The notes below the pieces were generated by a model. The model had not been told where the DNA came from. It was given only the letters and a program-made list of their open reading frames with translations, and made no database searches. A stretch of 42,802 bases of DNA from assembly GCA_017560765.1 (NCBI GenBank), contig JAFZEI010000132.1, positions 1 to 42,802 of the forward strand, given 5' to 3'. Below are positions 2,546 to 39,895 of this stretch, in pieces. The translations under genes and the position numbers were made by a program. Position 1 is the first letter of the stretch. Each line of letters begins with the position of its first letter. The DNA comes from Clostridia bacterium (GTDB taxonomy: Bacteria; Bacillota; Clostridia; UBA1212; UBA1255).

Positions 2546-4195
2546 TTGAAATACTCTTTAGATGAAAATCAAGAAAAAATTGTCTCACATATTGATGGTC
2601 CTGCTCTTGTTTTAGCAGGACCGGGAAGCGGTAAAACAACTGTCTTGATAGAAAGAACGATAAGACTGGCAAGAAAAATCAAAATGCCTCAAAAAATATT
2701 GTGCGTTACATTTACAAATGCTGCGGCAAGGGAAATGGAAAAAAGATTTCTGCAATCACAAAATGAAACTGACGATAATTTTTCTCAAACTCCTGTTTTT
2801 AAAACTGTCCACAGTTTTTGCAACGAGGTCATAAAGGAGTACGAGCGTTCCGTAGGAGTAAAATATAGGAGGATAGAAGGAAACAGCGGAGAAAAGAGAA
2901 AAATTTTTAAGGATTTGTACAAGGAAATTAATGGGGAAGATGGAGAGGAGTATATAATTGACAAATTAAATGATTTTAATAAAAAAAGCAATACTGTACT
3001 TGAAATTAAAGGTTTTCGCAAAATTATGGCATCGTATGATATATATAAAAATAAATATTGTATGATAGATTTTGATGATATGATTACAATCGCATTGGGG
3101 ATTTTGTCTTCGCCTGAGAAAAACAAGCTGCGAATAAGGGAGTATTTCTGCAGTAGATTTGATTATATACAAGTGGATGAGGCGCAGGACCTTACATCTG
3201 AACAGTTTGCGATAATTGAGATGATAGGCAAACACGGAAATGTTTTTGTAGTGGCTGACGATGACCAGAGCATATACGGATTTAGAGGTGCAGCACCGGA
3301 GTGTTTATTTAAGTTTCAAAAGAATTTTTCTGATTGCCAAACATATTATTTGTCAAGAAATTACAGGTCAGTGGGGAATATCGTTGATTATTCTTGTAAA
3401 TTCATAGCGCAGAATAAAGACAGATTCAGCAAAAATCTCTACAGCAAAAACATAAAAGGTCCCGTACCAAGAATAAAATGTTTTAAAAACGGTATTAAGC
3501 AAGCGGAATTTGTTTGCAAAGAAACAAAAAAGCTTTTAAAAGTTAATAAAGACACGAAAATAGGTGTACTTTACAGGAATAATATTTCCGGATTATTACC
3601 AAGGGCTGTATTTGTTTGTGAAGGATATAATTTGAAATGCGGAGAAGACTTTTTTAAGACGAGAGAAATGGATTTTTTAGATGATATAATCTCCGTAATG
3701 AGAAGCATGGAAAGAAATTGCGTAGTAGTGCCGACTCCTTCTAAAATGTTGAGAACACTGAGAGAAGAGGGGCTAAGTAATAAATTAGAAAATTATTGCA
3801 GAAACTCCGGCAGAAATATATATTATAAGGAGATATTAAGCGAGTTTCTTGAGTTTTTATGTATGTACTCAGGCAGTGTGAAAAATATGGTGTCTTTATT
3901 GGACAAAATTGATGATAAAAATATAATTTCTCGGACAAGCAACACTTGCTGCGTTGAGTTATCAACAGTTCATTCCTCTAAAGGTCTTGAATATGATGTC
4001 GTTTTTTTGATTGATGTTGTAAGAGGCGAGTTTCCCGGACGGAATGCAACAGTCGGCAAAGCTTTAGAAGAGGAAAGGCGCCTTTTTTACGTCGCTATGA
4101 CAAGAGCTAAGGAATCTTTATATGTGCTGTACCCTCAACGACGAGGAGAAGAAAGTGCCTTTATTACTGAGCTGAAAAAATTAGCTGCTCTTTAG
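2546..4195 (+). CDS. UvrD/PcrA-type superfamily 1A DNA helicase, short form
   Basis: This is an ATP-dependent 3'-5' DNA translocase/helicase of the UvrD/Rep/PcrA family. Motifs appear in order: Walker A AGPGSGKT (residues 24-31), FTNAAAREM, Walker B VDEAQD (about 210-215), DDDQSIYGFRG (about 238), LSRNYRS, HSSKGLEYDVV (about 474) and RRLFYVAMTRAKESLYV near 510. At 549 residues it is shorter than a typical PcrA of roughly 730, mainly because the accessory 2B region is reduced. A repair or recombination role is likely, but the partner is unknown. The start is TTG at 2546, chosen because GAAGGAG at 2529-2535 is well placed and no ATG lies nearby in frame. The gene is monocistronic with its own promoter. 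Confidence 0.9.
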   Translation: MKYSLDENQEKIVSHIDGPALVLAGPGSGKTTVLIERTIRLARKIKMPQKILCVTFTNAAAREMEKRFLQSQNETDDNFSQTPVFKTVHSFCNEVIKEYERSVGVKYRRIEGNSGEKRKIFKDLYKEINGEDGEEYIIDKLNDFNKKSNTVLEIKGFRKIMASYDIYKNKYCMIDFDDMITIALGILSSPEKNKLRIREYFCSRFDYIQVDEAQDLTSEQFAIIEMIGKHGNVFVVADDDQSIYGFRGAAPECLFKFQKNFSDCQTYYLSRNYRSVGNIVDYSCKFIAQNKDRFSKNLYSKNIKGPVPRIKCFKNGIKQAEFVCKETKKLLKVNKDTKIGVLYRNNISGLLPRAVFVCEGYNLKCGEDFFKTREMDFLDDIISVMRSMERNCVVVPTPSKMLRTLREEGLSNKLENYCRNSGRNIYYKEILSEFLEFLCMYSGSVKNMVSLLDKIDDKNIISRTSNTCCVELSTVHSSKGLEYDVVFLIDVVRGEFPGRNATVGKALEEERRLFYVAMTRAKESLYVLYPQRRGEESAFITELKKLAAL

Positions 4196-30341: not shown

Positions 30342-31448
30342 ATGGTTTACAGAGATCTTGGCAATACCGGAGTGCGTTTGTCACCGCTGGGATTCGGAAT
30401 GATGCGTCTTCCTTCTGATGAGCGCGTTGTTACAAAAATGGTAAGAGATGCGATTGATGCAGGCGTTAATTATATTGATACGGCATACTGTTATTTGGAC
30501 GGTAAAAGCGAGTCCATTACAGGCAGAGTTCTTTCCGATGGTTACAGAGATAAGATTTATCTTGCTACAAAGTGTCCTGTGTGGCTGATAGAAAAAGATA
30601 CTGACTTTGACCGTATTTTAAACGAACAACTAAAAAGATTAAAAACAGAACAGATAGATTTTTATTTGCTTCACTCTCTTAATAAAAGCAGTTGGGAAAA
30701 TGTAAAGAAATTTGGATTATTGGAAAAAATGAAAGAAGCTCGTGAACAAGGCAAGATTTGTTACCTTGGTTTTTCTTTCCACGATACGTATGATTTGTTT
30801 CAAGAAATAGTAGATAGTTTTGATGAATGGGATTTTTGTCAAATACAGCTAAACTATTTGGATACGAAGTATCAGGCCGGTATTAAGGGAATGAAATACG
30901 CCGCAGAAAAGGGACTCGGTGTTATTGTAATGGAGCCGCTTAGAGGCGGATATTTGGCTAATGTTCCTCAAACAATACAGGATATATTCGGTAAGAGTAA
31001 AACGCCGATAGAGGGGGCTTTTGACTTCTTGTGGGATATGCCGGAAGTAGGCACAGTTTTGAGCGGTATGAGCACGCAAGCACAAGTTGATGAGAATATA
31101 AAATATGCAGAACGTTCTTCGGTAGGAATGTTATCAGAAGATGATAAAAAGATAATAGAAGCAGTAACAAAGGAATTCAAGAAGATGGGAACAGTTCCTT
31201 GCACCGGTTGTTCTTATTGCAATATTTGCCCGAAAAAAATAGCTATTCCTCAAAGTTTTGCTGCGTATAACAGTGCTTTGTTAGAAGATAATTTTGAGCA
31301 GGCAAAGCATCAGTATGTAGACTGGGTACCGCGTTTTGGCGCTCTTCCTTCAAACTGTATAAGTTGTCATAAATGCGAAGAAATATGTCCTCAACATATA
31401 AAAATCAGTGAATATATGCATAAAATACACGAATTCTTTCAAGAATGA
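30342..31448 (+). CDS. Aldo/keto reductase with C-terminal two-cluster ferredoxin domain
   Basis: The 368-residue protein has an AKR barrel with D46 and Y49 in DTAYCY, K77 in ATKCP, and a normal substrate loop, followed by CTGCSYCNICP (from about 287) and CISCHKCEEICP (from about 338). These should hold two 4Fe-4S clusters. This architecture is common in anaerobes, where the barrel is coupled to ferredoxin-like electron transfer; the substrate is unknown. AAGGAGG (30328-30334) precedes the ATG. It is likely cotranscribed with metF. Confidence 0.88.
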   Translation: MVYRDLGNTGVRLSPLGFGMMRLPSDERVVTKMVRDAIDAGVNYIDTAYCYLDGKSESITGRVLSDGYRDKIYLATKCPVWLIEKDTDFDRILNEQLKRLKTEQIDFYLLHSLNKSSWENVKKFGLLEKMKEAREQGKICYLGFSFHDTYDLFQEIVDSFDEWDFCQIQLNYLDTKYQAGIKGMKYAAEKGLGVIVMEPLRGGYLANVPQTIQDIFGKSKTPIEGAFDFLWDMPEVGTVLSGMSTQAQVDENIKYAERSSVGMLSEDDKKIIEAVTKEFKKMGTVPCTGCSYCNICPKKIAIPQSFAAYNSALLEDNFEQAKHQYVDWVPRFGALPSNCISCHKCEEICPQHIKISEYMHKIHEFFQE

Positions 31449-31471
31449 TTTTTGCTTTTTGGGGAGGTTAT

Positions 31472-33354
31472 ATGAGAAAGACAAAGCTCAAATGTATAAC
31501 TTTTTTGTTTTATGTTTGGTATGCGGTTGTGCAGATAGTAATCGATTAGGTAGCGGAACAAAAAATAAAACATATACTCAGGATGTATCGCTGCTTACCC
31601 AGCCTGTCTTTTCGGACAGAGGAGGTTTTTACAGTGATAATTTAAAATTGGAAATAACAATCCCTGAGAAGCTAAGTAATAATGCAAAAACCATAAGAGT
31701 AACATTTGATGGCAGTGAGCCTACCTCAAATAGTGATGAGTATAAAGGCAGCATTTTGCTGCCTGATGCCGGCTTTGTGAAAACCGGATTCGCTAAAAAA
31801 GAAGAGAATGTAAAAGTTTCCGTAGTGAGAGCTGCATGCTTTGATGATAATGGTAATGTAGTAGGTCAAATAGCTACAGCAACGTATATACAATTAGAGG
31901 AAAGCAATAGCGGCAGCGGAAAAACAAGATTTGATTTGCCGGTAATTTCCCTTGTGACGGATGACAGTAATTTAAACAGCCGCGATTACGGTATATTTAG
32001 AAATACAGATGGTCGCGGTTCGGAATGGGAACGGCCGGTTAATGTTTCTTTTTTTGAAACGGATGGTGATTTGGCCTTTGCACAAGATGCGGGAATTCGT
32101 TTGTTTGGTGGCAGTACAAGAAATTTGACACAAAAATCATTCCGCATTACAGCAAGAAAAGCAGATTATTTTCAAACTGATGTATATGATGGAGCAGGTA
32201 AGTTTAAGTATGCGTTGTTTAGTGACAGAAAAGATAGCCAAGGCAATATACTTGACAGATATGACAGCTTTGTTTTAAGAAACGGAGGAAATGACTCTAT
32301 CTTTTTTGCTGAGGATAGCTCTCGTATAACATTTTTAAGAGATGGTCTTGCGGCCAAAATAACTCAAATGGCAGCTCCCGAAGTAGATACAATGGATTAC
32401 AGACCTGTAGTTGTTTTCTTAAATGGTGAGTATTACGGTATAATGAATTTAAGAGAATATCAAAATAATAAATATATTCAAAACGTCTACGGTATTGATG
32501 ATAAAGACGGAATTACTGTTATTTCGACTGAAATGGACACCTCTTTGGGAGGCAGATATGATGGTAAATGGTTTTATTATAAGCAAGATGACGGACCGGA
32601 AGGTGAGTTGCAAGCTTTCTTGACACTTTTGACTGATATTACTTCAGGTAAGTACACTTATGAACAGGCTTGTGAAAAAATAGATATGGATAACTTTATG
32701 AAATATTGTGCATTGAATTTATTCTTGTGCAATACTGACTGGCCCCATAATAATGTAAAGCTTTGGCGCTATGCAGGTAACAATCCGGGAGGAAACGCAG
32801 ATGCAGCGGCAACTGACGGTAAATGGAGATTTATGCTTAAAGACGCAGATTTGGGGTTAGGAAGGTTTGTTTGTGCAGCAGAAAAGCGCCAATATCCTAT
32901 TGAACTTTATACAAAAGCAGATTGTCAAAGCATACGCTTTTTGCTTGCAAACTATATTTCTTTTGATAATAAGTCAGGTTATCCGTCTGTGAATAAAAAC
33001 ACATATCCTGATGCATTAAAAATTCAAGGGTTGTTTTATTTTTGTATGCAACATGATGAATTCGCTGATAAATTCTATGATTTTTGCAATACGCTCACTA
33101 CACAAATTTGTTCTTACGATACGCTTAAAGCCTTAATAGAAGAATCTTACAAGGAAATAGAAAACGAATTTGATAATTATTTAAATAAGGATTTCGGCAA
33201 TTGGCCGTGGGAAGGCAACACTACACTCAAACAGTGGAAATCGGCTGTATGTGACAACAAAGATTCGTTATTAACATGGGCAAAGGCAAGAACAGGCTCT
33301 GACGGAGAATTTATGAAACAGGTAACGGAGCTTAGGGATGTTCTCAACAGATAA
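31472..33354 (+). CDS. CotH-like kinase lipoprotein with a frameshift in the signal peptide
   Basis: A strong GGGGAGG (31461-31467) precedes ATG 31472, which opens MRKTKLKCITF and then stops at TAG 31547. The CotH frame, shifted by -1, supplies FVLCLVCGCADSN, a lipobox. Joining the two at T TTT TTG (31501-31507) gives an ordinary lipoprotein signal. Without a shift, the only start is ATG 31493, with no ribosome site and a 12-residue leader. After the signal come a chitobiase C-terminal-like domain (TFDGSEPTSNSDEY) and a CotH domain with VLRNGGNDS, FLNGEYYGIMNLRE, CNTDWPHNNVKLW and the metal motif DADLGLG. CotH proteins are secreted protein kinases, first known from spore coats. It leads an operon with the two genes below. 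Confidence 0.75.
31501..31507 (+). other. Slippery heptamer T TTT TTG at the frameshift
   Basis: In the frame of ATG 31472 the bases read ACT TTT TTG, so T TTT TTG fits the X XXY YYZ rule for -1 slippage. A seventh T at this place would also restore one open frame. Real frameshifting, phase variation and a sequencing error cannot be told apart here. Confidence 0.55.
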
Positions 33355-33371: not shown

Positions 33372-34775
33372 ATGATGGTAAAAAGATTAATTTCTTTATG
33401 TCTGGCTTTGATTATTCTTTTAACAGGTATTTGTTTTTTTTATAATTCAAACAATATTACATTGATGGTAAAGAAAACTATGCTTGGCAACGAGGATTTT
33501 GAGAATCAAGATAGGGCAATAAACGCTTTTATAGATGCTTTTAACAATGAATATCCACATATAAGTGTGAAAATTAATTATGTAAATGAATATCCTGCGC
33601 ATTTAAATGAGACCGAGCTTATACTTTTTGGGGCAGACGAAATGTTGGAATATGCTCCAAATGATTTAAAAGTATTGACGGATATTGTTTCAACAAATAA
33701 TATGCCGGAAAAAATAGCTAACACGGGACGATTGGCTATTAAGAGTGATAAGAAAGATTTATATATGTTACCGTTTAATTATGATAGAGCTGTAGTATAT
33801 TTAGACAAAGAAGTATTTGATTTTTTAGGAGTAGATATACCAAGTGTTGATTGGACATACGAGGATTTTAAGGAAACAGCTCAAAATACAACAAGAAGGT
33901 ATTTTGATTATAAAGAATATAAAAACATTTTAGGTGTTCATTTGCCTATCGGAAAATCTTATGTGTGGAAATATTTTTATGATAATTTGGGAGATGAATG
34001 GCATAATGATTCTTTCCGAGTAGAATTTAATACTGATAAAAATCTTAAGGTTATGGAAGATGTACTCGGCTTATGCAAAAAAAACGGAAAATGCTATTCA
34101 ATGACGTTGAAAAGTTCAGCCCTTTTCTATGCTGAGACAGCTATGGCTTGGGTGAATGCGTGTCAGCCTGAATATGACGATTATAGAATCATATCAGACG
34201 AAGTTAGCGATTCTTTAGTTGGCAGAAGAGCAAAACAGCTTGCGGCGAATGGAAATCTTGTTTTACTGCCTCTACCAAGTGTTAACGGCACCAATATGAG
34301 TTACTCCAATACAGAATTTATAAAAGGTATAGGAATAAGCGCGTATATTTCTCATAGCAAAATGGAAAATGCTGTTAAGCTCGTACAATTTGCACAAACG
34401 TATAAGGGCAACAGTGCACTTAATTCATATTATGGAGGCATACCGTCTAACGAGAGTTTGTGGGGAGAGGAATATTGGAAAAAAGGCTGTCTGCAAGGAG
34501 AAAATGCAGACAATGTACTTATAGGTATTGAAAATGACAAAAGAGACGATTATGCAGATATTTTAATCAAAGACGAAGCAATATATGAGAAAAACTTGAG
34601 ATTAAGGGCAATAAGCGCAGGTTTGCTGCTCCAAGAGTTTAGGGAAACTCAAAGAAATATAAAGAACTTTGAAGAAATTATGAATCGTATGGCAAGATAT
34701 TTTAATATGACCATAAAGAATAGCGGTATACCTGATGGGTTTAATCGTGACATAATTGCAAGGGAGGAATCTTAA
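33372..34775 (+). CDS. Extracellular solute-binding protein (family 1), no permease nearby
   Basis: The 467-residue protein has an N-terminal membrane/signal helix (about 4-26) without a lipobox cysteine, so it may remain membrane-anchored. It then has the layout of ABC sugar-binding proteins: AFIDAFNNEYPHISVKINYV, a hinge region, DWTYEDFKETAQ and WGEEYWKKG near the end. Such proteins bind oligosaccharides for ABC importers, but no permease or ATPase gene lies anywhere in the window. It sits 17 bases after the CotH-like gene and 1 base before the GH99-like gene, so it probably serves those two. Ligand unknown. Confidence 0.72.
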   Translation: MMVKRLISLCLALIILLTGICFFYNSNNITLMVKKTMLGNEDFENQDRAINAFIDAFNNEYPHISVKINYVNEYPAHLNETELILFGADEMLEYAPNDLKVLTDIVSTNNMPEKIANTGRLAIKSDKKDLYMLPFNYDRAVVYLDKEVFDFLGVDIPSVDWTYEDFKETAQNTTRRYFDYKEYKNILGVHLPIGKSYVWKYFYDNLGDEWHNDSFRVEFNTDKNLKVMEDVLGLCKKNGKCYSMTLKSSALFYAETAMAWVNACQPEYDDYRIISDEVSDSLVGRRAKQLAANGNLVLLPLPSVNGTNMSYSNTEFIKGIGISAYISHSKMENAVKLVQFAQTYKGNSALNSYYGGIPSNESLWGEEYWKKGCLQGENADNVLIGIENDKRDDYADILIKDEAIYEKNLRLRAISAGLLLQEFRETQRNIKNFEEIMNRMARYFNMTIKNSGIPDGFNRDIIAREES

Positions 34776-34776
34776 A

Positions 34777-36714
34777 ATGAAATACTGTAAAGGAATTGCA
34801 GCATTATTACTTATATGCTGTATATGTTTTGGTAATATTGGTTCTTCTTATGCAGCAGATATACGAGATGTTAAGAATGATACATGGATTGCTACAGATG
34901 ATTTAGGCAGAGTTTTACCGCTCAATGATAAAACAGGTAATGTAAAAGAAGATAAATACGTAGGTATTTTTTATTTTCTTTTCCTTAATGGCTCACAAGA
35001 TGAAGCGATTTTAGACATAACACACTCATATAAACGCGGCGGAATTGAGGCTGTTTGGGAAGATTTACTTTATGGCAGCGGAACCTTTTTTTGGGCAGAA
35101 CCATATTTTGGTTATTATCGTAATAATGACGCTTGGGTATATGCTAAACATGCTCAGCTTTTGTGTGATGCAGGAGTAGACTTTGTGTTTTTAGATATAA
35201 CAAATCACTCTGCATTTTTTGAAGATGCATGGCAGCTGTTATTGGATGTTTGGTCTGATATAAGAGCAAAAGGAGGAAATACTCCTCAAGTGGTATTCCA
35301 TTGCGGAGACCAAGAGGCAACGGGAAAGATGCACATAGAATGGCTTTGGGATAAATTATACAAAGATGAGCTTCATAAAGAACTATGGTTTTACTGGAAT
35401 GGCAAGCCATTGATTTTAGGCAATACAAAAACACTTTCTGATGAGATAAAAAGTTTTTTTACCATCCGTCGTTCTTGGGCGTTTAATTCATGGACTTTGG
35501 AAACAGAAGGAAAAGGTAGATGGCCATGGATAGCACAATATCCTCAAGAACCGGGAAGAGATGAAGACGGCAATATAGAGCAGGTTGCAGTGTCTGCCGG
35601 CTTCCACGCAAATTCTTCAAAGGGAAGAAGTTATCACAAAGGAAAAAATGAAATGTCAGGGCGATTTGACTTTGGCTTTGGGCTCGAAACATCGGGGCTT
35701 GGTCTTGCTTTTGCAGAGCAATGGTCAAGAGTCTTTGAGTTGGATCCTAAACTTGTCATGATTACGGGCTGGAATGAATTTACTGCAGGTCGTTGGATAG
35801 ACCCTAATGCTAATACGCAGCTTGTGGCAGGTTCTTATGTGGTTACGCCCAATGACCCACAATTCAAATATGTTTATGTGGATTTGTTAAGCCCTGAATA
35901 CAGTCGTGATATAGAGCCTATCAGTGATTTTTTCAGAGATAACTATTATTATCAAATGGCATATTATATAAGGCTTTTTAAAGGAACTCGCGCAGGAGAA
36001 AAAGGTACGGGAAGTGCTGATATTGATATAAAAGGAGACTTGTCTGTATTGGAATCTGTAGGTCCGGAATATTTAGATAGCACGAATGATATTCTTCATA
36101 GAAATGCAGATGGTATTGGTGCAATATATACATACGTAAATGAAACGGGACGCAATGATATAGCTCTTGCAAAAGTGTCCAAAACGGGAAAATATACGTA
36201 TTTTTATGTAAAATGCGAATCTGATATCATAGAGGCAGAAGGTACAAATTGGATGAATCTTTATATTGACAGTGATCAATATTACTATACCGGCTGGGCA
36301 GGATATGATTTTGTAATCAACAGAAGCCATGGCGACGGAAAGGTTTCCGTGGAGAGATTCGTGGATAATTCTTGGAAATTTGAAAGTGTGGGCGAAGCAG
36401 AATACACTTTAAATGGCAAAGAGCTAATAATAAAGGTTAATTCTTCTCTGGTAGCGCTTGATGAGAGAGATAATTTTGATTTTAAATGGGCAGATAATTC
36501 TACAGTAACCGGAGAAGTTATGGAGTTTATGGACGTTGGTGACAGTGCGCCAAACGCCCGCTTTAACTATAGATATGAAAAAGCGGGCGGCATAATATCT
36601 AATGAAATATTATCATCAGAATCAAATATTAAATTAATTATAATAATTGGCGCAAGCCTTTTAATTTCGGCCTGCGCTGCAATCATCATTTCGAAAATTT
36701 ACCGGAAGAAATAG
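34777..36714 (+). CDS. GH99-like surface protein with C-terminal membrane anchor
   Basis: The 645-residue protein has a signal peptide cleaved near SSYAA, a barrel-like region (GIFYFLFLNGS, GYYRNNDAWVYAKHAQL, CDAGVDFVFLDIT, TGWNEFTAGRW near residue 331), a CBM9-like beta domain (from about 440, ending FMDVGDSAPNARFNYRY), and a final membrane helix before KIYRKK. The pattern resembles GH99 and GH99-like (WbsX) proteins, which act on mannan-type or other glycans; activity is not proven. AGGGAGG (34761-34767) precedes the ATG. It starts 1 base after the binding-protein gene, and its last 29 bases overlap the convergent CotH-RCC1 gene. Confidence 0.72.
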   Translation: MKYCKGIAALLLICCICFGNIGSSYAADIRDVKNDTWIATDDLGRVLPLNDKTGNVKEDKYVGIFYFLFLNGSQDEAILDITHSYKRGGIEAVWEDLLYGSGTFFWAEPYFGYYRNNDAWVYAKHAQLLCDAGVDFVFLDITNHSAFFEDAWQLLLDVWSDIRAKGGNTPQVVFHCGDQEATGKMHIEWLWDKLYKDELHKELWFYWNGKPLILGNTKTLSDEIKSFFTIRRSWAFNSWTLETEGKGRWPWIAQYPQEPGRDEDGNIEQVAVSAGFHANSSKGRSYHKGKNEMSGRFDFGFGLETSGLGLAFAEQWSRVFELDPKLVMITGWNEFTAGRWIDPNANTQLVAGSYVVTPNDPQFKYVYVDLLSPEYSRDIEPISDFFRDNYYYQMAYYIRLFKGTRAGEKGTGSADIDIKGDLSVLESVGPEYLDSTNDILHRNADGIGAIYTYVNETGRNDIALAKVSKTGKYTYFYVKCESDIIEAEGTNWMNLYIDSDQYYYTGWAGYDFVINRSHGDGKVSVERFVDNSWKFESVGEAEYTLNGKELIIKVNSSLVALDERDNFDFKWADNSTVTGEVMEFMDVGDSAPNARFNYRYEKAGGIISNEILSSESNIKLIIIIGASLLISACAAIIISKIYRKK

Positions 36715-37714
36715 TGGTTTTACCGATTTTATTTGAATTAGAACCTGTGCCGGATATTCCGTATTCGTTTTTACCCCAGACTGTAACGCTGCCGTCTTTG
36801 TTGAGAATGGCAGAGAACCATGAACCTGCGGCTCCCGTCTTAGCGCTGCTGCTTATGAGCTGCGGCGTGGAGAACGAAGATGCTGAAGATGAAGTAGAAA
36901 CTTGATTATAAGAATTAAGTCCCCAACCGTATATCTTACCGTCTTTTGTGACGATAATTGCGTGCTCATCTTGCATGCTGGCAGACGCAACATTAGACAT
37001 AACTTTGTGGAGTTGACCGTCACCCGCTCCGGTTGAGAAAGTTGAAGTACTTCTCCAACCGAAGTAATAAAGGTCTCCGGCGCTGTCTATACAGAAAGTT
37101 GAGTGCTCGCCGGCAAATACTTTAGTTATGGTTTTTGTTGAAATCTGAACAGGAGAGGTAAATACCTCTGTGCTGCTTGATGTAAGTTTTTTCCAACGAT
37201 TATCGCCCAATCCATACATTTTGCCGCCTTTTACGTATACGGTGTGACGCCTTCCTGCTGCCATAGATGTTACATTTGTGGCAATTTTTGTAAATGTTGT
37301 AACTTTGCCTTTGTAATTTGCAGAACCGAGCTGTCCTTTTTCGTTATTTCCAATGCCGTAAAGGTCGCCGTTCGTCATCAAAATCAAACTGTGGTCATAG
37401 CCGGCACTGATTTCCGCAATTGTTCCTGACGGAACCCCGCTTACAGGTCTTAACGTGTAATATTCATCGCCGGAGTAACCTGTTTGGTTGTAATTATTAT
37501 TGCCTACAGCATACAGCTTGCCATCAGCAGATAAAATTAATGTATGGGGATCGTCTCCTACATTTCCGCCTTGTGAAGTTGATACTTGTTTAACAGATGT
37601 CATAACGAGTGAAACAGGAAGAAGTGATGTGCCGGTGAAGATGCCTCCTTGTCCGTTTTCGCTGGCACCCCAAGCATATAAGTCTCCGTTGGATTTTAAA
37701 TAGAATATGGTCCT
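36686..37714 (-). repeat. RCC1 repeats encoded at the end of the CotH fusion
   Basis: About seven repeats of 45-55 residues cover residues 728-1069. The recurring core is xLYxWGxNxxGQLG: DLYAWGASENGQGG, KLYAVGNNNYNQTG, DLYGIGNNEKGQLG, KMYGLGDNRWKKL, DLYYFGWRS, KIYGWGLNSYNQVS and SVTVWGKNEYGISG. Seven blades make one closed propeller. Confidence 0.85.
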
Positions 37715-39895
37715 GGAACCTGCAACAAGAGCTTCTGACGCTGTGAAGCCGGTTTTGCGTGCAAGTACAGAAATTGTCATTTTTCCTGTTACAGTAATGG
37801 TAACAGAAGTGGAACTGTAAAATGTTTGCTTGCCGTCTGCTGTAGATATTGTTATGCCGGCAAAGGTGTAGCCGCTTTTTACAGTTGCTTTTAAGGTTAC
37901 TTTTTCACCTACGGAATATGCCACAGTGCTGCCGGAGGATACGCTCTTGGAGTTGATTGTTGCAGATGAAATACCATCTGAAAAAGTGATGCCGATATTA
38001 ATGGGAGCAAGATTAAAATACTCGTTAAATTGTTTTGTAGCATAATGAGTTCTGTTTTCAAGGAATGTCTTGATCTTGCTGATTTCGCTGTTCCATTTAG
38101 AAGTCGAAAAGCCCGAAGTAGACCAGCGCTGACTGTGGAGAGAAACGATGGGGCGAATCTCTTTTGACATATCGTCAAGCAAGGCTGTCATTTTATTTAC
38201 GGTAAAAATGTTTTTGGTTACGTAGTCAAATCTGTCAATGAATTTTTGCTTAAAACCATTATTAGCAAGGAGAGCATACATCAAGTCAGATAATATGGAG
38301 TTGTTATTAATACGATTCATCATATCGAATTTATAGTCGTTTGCATAACTGCATCCGTGATCCATATCAAGAAGCACAAAACGCCATTTTGTGTCAAGAC
38401 CGCTGGGATCCTCGGGGTTTTTGTTTCGCCAAACCTTAATGTTATTTGAGGGCCAGTCGATATTACAAAAGTAAAGGTTACAAATATAAAAGTCGATAAG
38501 ACTATCCACATCTACTTGATTGGCTACGTAATTATAGTATGTTGCATTTGATAAATCATGGTTTCTGGCATAAGAAACAAGATTGTTAAAAGGAACCTCG
38601 TCGCCGGGTAGACCGTCATTTACTTCGTATGGAGGTTTGCTGGTATTTGACTTTAACGGAGAGGGTGCTTCTAACATAACAAAATTTTCTTCAAGGACAC
38701 CATAGTGAGATTCGAAATACTTAGCATCATATCTTTCTCGAATATTGTAAAGCCCCCAGAATTCGCCGTTGATAAATACAGTTGCAGGTTGAGTCTCCAT
38801 ATAATCTACATTCATACCTTTGCAAATTCTTTGCATTAAAGCATCACGGAGCATGGAACATGTACAATCGTTGCCGGAATTTCTCAGCAACAAGCGTTTA
38901 TAAGAATCAATGTTCTCGTTAGAAGAATCATAAACTCTGCCTTCGAAAATGTCGTATTTAAGTTTTCCCGGATTATTCAGGACATCTGGATTTGCGTCTT
39001 TCTTAAAGTACATTCGGAAAGACTTTTGTTGATTACCTAAAGAACCGTTGCCATGCATAGAAAGCTCTATGTATTGACCTGCAACCTTTGAGCCGGATCT
39101 GTCAAAAAGTTCAAAGAAAGCTACTTTTCGTTCTTTTGTACCGAAAGGATCATTCATTACGCTTACATAGATACCGGAAGATGTTGCAAAATCAGTGGGT
39201 TTTATTGAAATTGAAATGCTTGGGAGATTGTAATTATTCGCGAAATCTGAAGAAACTATGTAGGTGTTGGTTACAGTATCAATTATATTGCTGCCGTTTT
39301 TTGCATAAGCCTTTATCGTTGTGCCTACTATTTGAGAAGAAGGCGCTGCGTATCTAAAAGATGAAGCAATACTTTGAGTCAAATAACCTACATTGCCTGT
39401 GCTTTCTTGGACCTTTATGGGGGAAGAATATTTCTTGCCGTTTGTTTTCGGGTCAGAACCGTCTGTGGTATAGTAAATAGTATATCCCGGGTCCGCCGTT
39501 AATTTTACCTCTAAGGCTTTTGAGTAAATGCCGCCGTTTGCAGAAAACTTAACAGTAGGGCCCTGAGGTGTGGGCGTGGGTTTTTCCGTAGGCTTTGCAG
39601 TCGGCTTGCTTGTTGGTGATGCAGTGGTACCGGAAACGGGTGCGTCTATTACGTTGGATGGTGTACTTGTGCCGCCCGGTGTTGGTGCCTCTGCTGATGT
39701 AATCGCCCCTGTGACGGAATCTGTCGGTCGGTTGCTGCTGGTTCCTGTGGATTGCGAAGAGGGGGTACTTAAAATTACATTTGTACTTGTAATTGTGTTT
39801 GTACTTTTGGGACTATTTGTTTGGTTTTCTTCTGCGCAACCAACAAATATAAAAAGTAGTACAACAGTGAAAAAAATTAAAAGTTTGCTTTTCAT
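36686..39895 (-). CDS. CotH-like kinase lipoprotein fused to an RCC1 beta-propeller
   Basis: The 1069-residue product has these parts in order: a lipoprotein signal with C20 (IFVGC); a Ser/Thr/Pro-rich stalk (21-112); a chitobiase C-terminal-like domain (113-213, YYTTDGSDPK); a CotH domain (about 220-630) with LLLRNSGNDC, FINGEFWGLYNIRE, CNIDWPSNNIKVW and DMDHG (D510, D512); an InlB-like beta repeat (about 633-713); and about seven RCC1 repeats. CotH kinases phosphorylate extracellular proteins, and RCC1 propellers usually bind partners. The ATG lies 1 base after the stop of the LacZ-like gene, with ACGGAGG inside that gene's end, so translation is coupled. The 3' end overlaps the convergent gene by 29 bases. 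Confidence 0.85.
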   Translation of the reverse strand: MKSKLLIFFTVVLLFIFVGCAEENQTNSPKSTNTITSTNVILSTPSSQSTGTSSNRPTDSVTGAITSAEAPTPGGTSTPSNVIDAPVSGTTASPTSKPTAKPTEKPTPTPQGPTVKFSANGGIYSKALEVKLTADPGYTIYYTTDGSDPKTNGKKYSSPIKVQESTGNVGYLTQSIASSFRYAAPSSQIVGTTIKAYAKNGSNIIDTVTNTYIVSSDFANNYNLPSISISIKPTDFATSSGIYVSVMNDPFGTKERKVAFFELFDRSGSKVAGQYIELSMHGNGSLGNQQKSFRMYFKKDANPDVLNNPGKLKYDIFEGRVYDSSNENIDSYKRLLLRNSGNDCTCSMLRDALMQRICKGMNVDYMETQPATVFINGEFWGLYNIRERYDAKYFESHYGVLEENFVMLEAPSPLKSNTSKPPYEVNDGLPGDEVPFNNLVSYARNHDLSNATYYNYVANQVDVDSLIDFYICNLYFCNIDWPSNNIKVWRNKNPEDPSGLDTKWRFVLLDMDHGCSYANDYKFDMMNRINNNSILSDLMYALLANNGFKQKFIDRFDYVTKNIFTVNKMTALLDDMSKEIRPIVSLHSQRWSTSGFSTSKWNSEISKIKTFLENRTHYATKQFNEYFNLAPINIGITFSDGISSATINSKSVSSGSTVAYSVGEKVTLKATVKSGYTFAGITISTADGKQTFYSSTSVTITVTGKMTISVLARKTGFTASEALVAGSRTIFYLKSNGDLYAWGASENGQGGIFTGTSLLPVSLVMTSVKQVSTSQGGNVGDDPHTLILSADGKLYAVGNNNYNQTGYSGDEYYTLRPVSGVPSGTIAEISAGYDHSLILMTNGDLYGIGNNEKGQLGSANYKGKVTTFTKIATNVTSMAAGRRHTVYVKGGKMYGLGDNRWKKLTSSSTEVFTSPVQISTKTITKVFAGEHSTFCIDSAGDLYYFGWRSTSTFSTGAGDGQLHKVMSNVASASMQDEHAIIVTKDGKIYGWGLNSYNQVSTSSSASSFSTPQLISSSAKTGAAGSWFSAILNKDGSVTVWGKNEYGISGTGSNSNKIGKTTISSGKFSK

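Follow-up and report, generated by a model that had tools for sequence, protein, structure and literature searches.

How can a surface lipoprotein be made if the start of its signal peptide lies in one reading frame and the remainder in another? This question is raised by a gene for a CotH-domain lipoprotein in the window, i.e., the whole stretch of 42,802 nucleotides analysed here, which is contig C128 of a Clostridia bacterium genome (2.19 Mb, 132 contigs, 95.75% complete). When the sequence was checked, a Shine-Dalgarno (SD) sequence was found to be followed by an ATG at 31472-31474, and the frame opened there (frame 0) encodes the peptide MRKTKLKCITFLFYVWYAVVQIVID, which begins with MRKTKLKCITF and is soon ended by a TAG (Table 1). 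Relative to this ATG, the CotH open reading frame is in the -1 frame; it is open from 31402 up to a stop codon whose last base is 33354, and it carries the hydrophobic core, the lipobox (LVCGC) and a CotH protein of 620 aa. While the basic n-region, core and lipobox of a lipoprotein share one frame, the n-region is here in frame 0 and the core and lipobox are in the -1 frame. A previous sequence-only reading had described this split, and it is confirmed by the sequence and its frames.

Table 1. Position of the split signal peptide and associated features in the window.
Feature	Position	Strand	Basis
Aldo/keto reductase-ferredoxin gene, upstream of the CotH gene	30342..31448	+	Profile search, synteny
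Shine-Dalgarno sequence GGGGAGG	31461..31467	+	Sequence
Frame-0 short ORF, MRKTKLKCITFLFYVWYAVVQIVID*, with basic signal-peptide start; TAG at 31547-31549	31472..31549	+	Sequence
Body of the CotH-domain lipoprotein (-1 frame, counted from its first ATG); core and lipobox FFVLCLVCGC, CHB_HEX_C_1/Fn3_assoc, CotH	31492..33354	+	Profile search
T6-G heptamer T_TTT_TTG in frame-0 phase; possible, unproven frame-break site	31501..31507	+	Sequence, heptamer counts
Lipobox end C-G-C; candidate lipidated Cys at 31528-31530	31522..31530	+	Sequence, lipobox scan

The CotH frame offers three start codons of its own near the lipobox (GTG 31408, TTG 31459 and ATG 31492), but all of them lack an SD sequence and would provide little or no net positive charge. 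The internal ATG 31492, from which translation would begin with MYNFFVLCLVCGC, was rejected as the true start for want of both an SD sequence and a basic residue. TTG 31459 was rejected as well, as no SD sequence precedes it and the real one would fall within the coding sequence.

Downstream of its start, the gene has the features of an ordinary CotH lipoprotein gene. Profile search assigns the body to the CotH kinase-like family (PF08757), with a match of 109 bits (cut-off 23.8, E 4.2e-31) covering positions 1-318 of the 322 positions of the profile, and a short Fn3_assoc/CHB_HEX_C_1 segment precedes the CotH domain. A PDB sequence search with the protein gave no match, and neither did a search of viral contigs and plasmids. 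The closest orthologue, in genome G001, shares 69% protein identity and is found just downstream of the same aldo/keto reductase 3' end (G001:C179:9092-9235). The gene shares with the CotH-domain lipoproteins of gut Clostridia the CotH domain, the Fn3_assoc/CHB_HEX_C_1 segment, the N-terminal lipobox and, in the case of G001, the upstream gene; however, only the window copy has its start and lipobox in different frames. The 28 related CotH loci compared comprise the own-genome paralogue L089 and 27 loci of other genomes, among which the same genome is in some cases represented twice. All 28 have start codon and N-terminal signal in one frame; for L019, where the automatic scan gave no lipobox, this was judged by visual inspection of the in-frame start and the hydrophobic stretch. 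None of the 28 carries TTTTTTG in its signal region. Such a T tract is likewise absent from the closest orthologues in G001, G003 and G004 (L007-L009), and in L017, another relative, the signal region contains a T8 run, which is in frame.

The body of the window gene contains no stop or frameshift across 620 codons. Since its three codon positions differ from those of the closest orthologue by 0.25, 0.13 and 0.55, respectively, the CotH protein has been under long purifying selection, at least until recently; selection was read from these codon-position differences only, dS to this orthologue being saturated. An intact body after long purifying selection fits a recent break. Taken together, we consider it very probable that this is an ordinary CotH lipoprotein gene with one small, unprogrammed, frame-breaking indel in its signal region, which is either a recent real mutation or an assembly or consensus error. 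It resembles other frame-disrupting indels of draft assemblies and recent pseudogenes in that the frame is broken once while the gene is otherwise intact and conserved, and we saw no notable difference from them. What counts against this explanation is that the heptamer stands exactly in phase where the signal peptide, plausible as a whole, is divided, and that the rest of the sampled assembly holds no comparable break.

The first of these points leads to recoding. Bacterial -1 programmed frameshifting uses heptamers of the form X_XXZ_ZZN, e.g., in IS3-family elements, and the sequence-only reading had recognised T TTT TTG as such a canonical slippery site. Its form and phase were verified, as six T residues (31501-31506) and a G (31507) are in the canonical phase for a tandem -1 slip, by which the lipoprotein would be produced. 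However, the window gene differs from programmed sites in other respects. The heptamer is not conserved in the orthologues, the signal region of all relatives being free of it, and it is common in the genome: ORFs of at least 250 aa, which total 271 kb, contain it in phase 26 times, and two of these occurrences are in other ordinary genes of the window, at 4003 and 4577. No stimulator was detected either: the 83 nt 3' of the heptamer fold no better than shuffled sequences (z = 0.39), no structure above shuffles was found across 31440-31600 (z 0.03), and the sequence 6-17 nt upstream (31485-31496) contains nothing SD-like, while 33 nt separate the end of the initiation SD from the heptamer. Without stimulators, even the three best heptamers reach a frameshifting level of only about 0.3% in E. 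coli (PMC4066793). Programmed frameshifting at this site, or transcript slippage, for which we found no support and which is unlikely on a tract of six bases, is thus an extremely improbable source of the lipoprotein.

Switching of the gene through changes in tract length, i.e., phase-variable surface display, had been proposed as well. In its favour, the frame is broken at the tract, whose lengthening or shortening would fuse the two parts of the gene or separate them. However, six bases are short for a phase-variable tract, the closest orthologues lack it, and the same genome encodes three other CotH lipoproteins (L086, L087 and L089) whose signal-peptide T6-T7 tracts are ordinary and in frame. 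Nothing we found supports phase variation, and we regard it as very unlikely. That the tract controls the display of the CotH lipoprotein at all, be it by -1 frameshifting or by tract-length switching, as a trait of recent origin confined to this species, is improbable too. A literature search revealed no lipoprotein case of this split-signal kind.

The unprogrammed indel was further examined against the rest of the genome. When about 340 kb were searched for lipoboxes preceded by a hydrophobic core, 32 candidates were obtained, from which evident internal and antisense matches were set aside. About 22 other clear lipoproteins have an in-frame, SD-preceded start and net positive charge, leaving the window gene as the one clear exception among about 23 genes; a recurring split-signal pattern was consequently rejected. 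The genome contains five CotH genes, i.e., the split gene and four others. A second, larger CotH lipoprotein of 1069 aa is encoded in the window itself (36686-39895, minus strand) and has an intact in-frame signal peptide, MKSKLLIFFTVVLLFIFVGC, with a T7 tract. Directly after the CotH gene follows a solute-binding-protein-like gene (33372-34775; PF01547, weak match), whose product has no canonical lipobox and may be anchored in the membrane by an uncleaved signal. Directly after both lies a gene for a secreted protein of 652 aa (34756-36714), which begins with a signal and has a hydrophobic segment plus a basic tail at its C-terminus; a Pfam search with it gave no match at 0.001.

Frame breaks in general were surveyed with a dicodon model that allows frameshifts, applied to 244 genes (292 kb of coding sequence). 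The model proposed nine frameshifts, all of which proved on inspection to be ordinary gene junctions. Because only 67 of 121 planted deletions were found inside genes (about 55%) and 2 of 20 within the first 100 nt, the survey says only that internal breaks are rare, and its failure to find a genome-wide error pattern is a bound rather than an exclusion. An isolated assembly error at the CotH signal is possible.

Such an error, with cells carrying an intact gene, has in our view somewhat less than an even chance. It is favoured by the draft state of the genome, by the low-complexity, T-rich nature of the stretch, by the purifying selection on the CotH body and by the fact that every related gene is in frame. 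Against it stands the lack of any other frame break in the 292 kb surveyed, at the sensitivity given above and despite the presence of about 830 A/T runs at least 6 long in the sample; furthermore, the gene that follows has a T8 tract (33434-33441) within its N-terminal hydrophobic stretch, and this tract is in frame. Since the genome is a draft of 132 contigs and its relatives are gut Clostridia MAGs, no finished sequence backs the base count.

The other form of the unprogrammed indel is a real one, in which one T or a core segment of 3k+1 nt would have been lost and the gene would be either a minor allele or recently inactivated. The clean remainder of the assembly argues for it, as do the four other CotH genes, with which a loss could be tolerated. 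The shape of the joined signal points in the same direction. If the two halves are joined at the T tract, the uncharged stretch before the Cys comprises 12 residues, compared with 13-20 in the 23 own lipoproteins sampled and 16-20 in 13 relatives, and the joined signal, with 19 residues, is among the shorter ones in a range of 17-30. The alignment with G001 shows a 19-nt gap at the T tract, G001 being the longer sequence. Because the joined core is short and this gap exists, a lost segment rather than one lost base is suggested. However, the alignment of the signal region is loose (about 72% DNA identity), and only one strain entered the comparison. A real indel comes close to an even chance, and the two forms are roughly balanced against each other.

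A lost segment of 3k+1 nt may thus explain the break at least as well as one lost T, and the T tract is not necessarily the site of the lesion. It lies at the break and in the right phase, as the sequence-only reading had pointed out; its role as the cause is nevertheless not secured, given the 19-nt gap and the fact that the frame would be broken in the same way by loss of 3k+1 nt at any point of the signal region. Of the four causes then listed, sequencing error stands in part, in that an assembly error or plain indel is the best account, while its assignment to the T tract is not secured.

With one small indel within the signal-peptide region breaking the frame, ribosomes that start at 31472 of the gene as assembled would make a peptide of 25 residues and stop, leaving the cell with little or no CotH protein anchored in its membrane. 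The indel itself would be a recent real mutation, either fixed or one allele in a mixed population, or an assembly or consensus error. The recent age of the break and the absence of the protein are inferences, whereas the break itself, the intact body, the in-frame relatives and the lack of recurrence in the sampled genome were observed directly.

If the unprogrammed indel is the true explanation, its significance would be small, as it would concern one out-of-frame gene in one draft genome, and annotators would have to treat the N-terminus of this CotH gene with care. If, in contrast, switching or recoding were true, the locus would represent an unusual on/off control of the lipid anchoring of a surface protein in a gut Clostridium.
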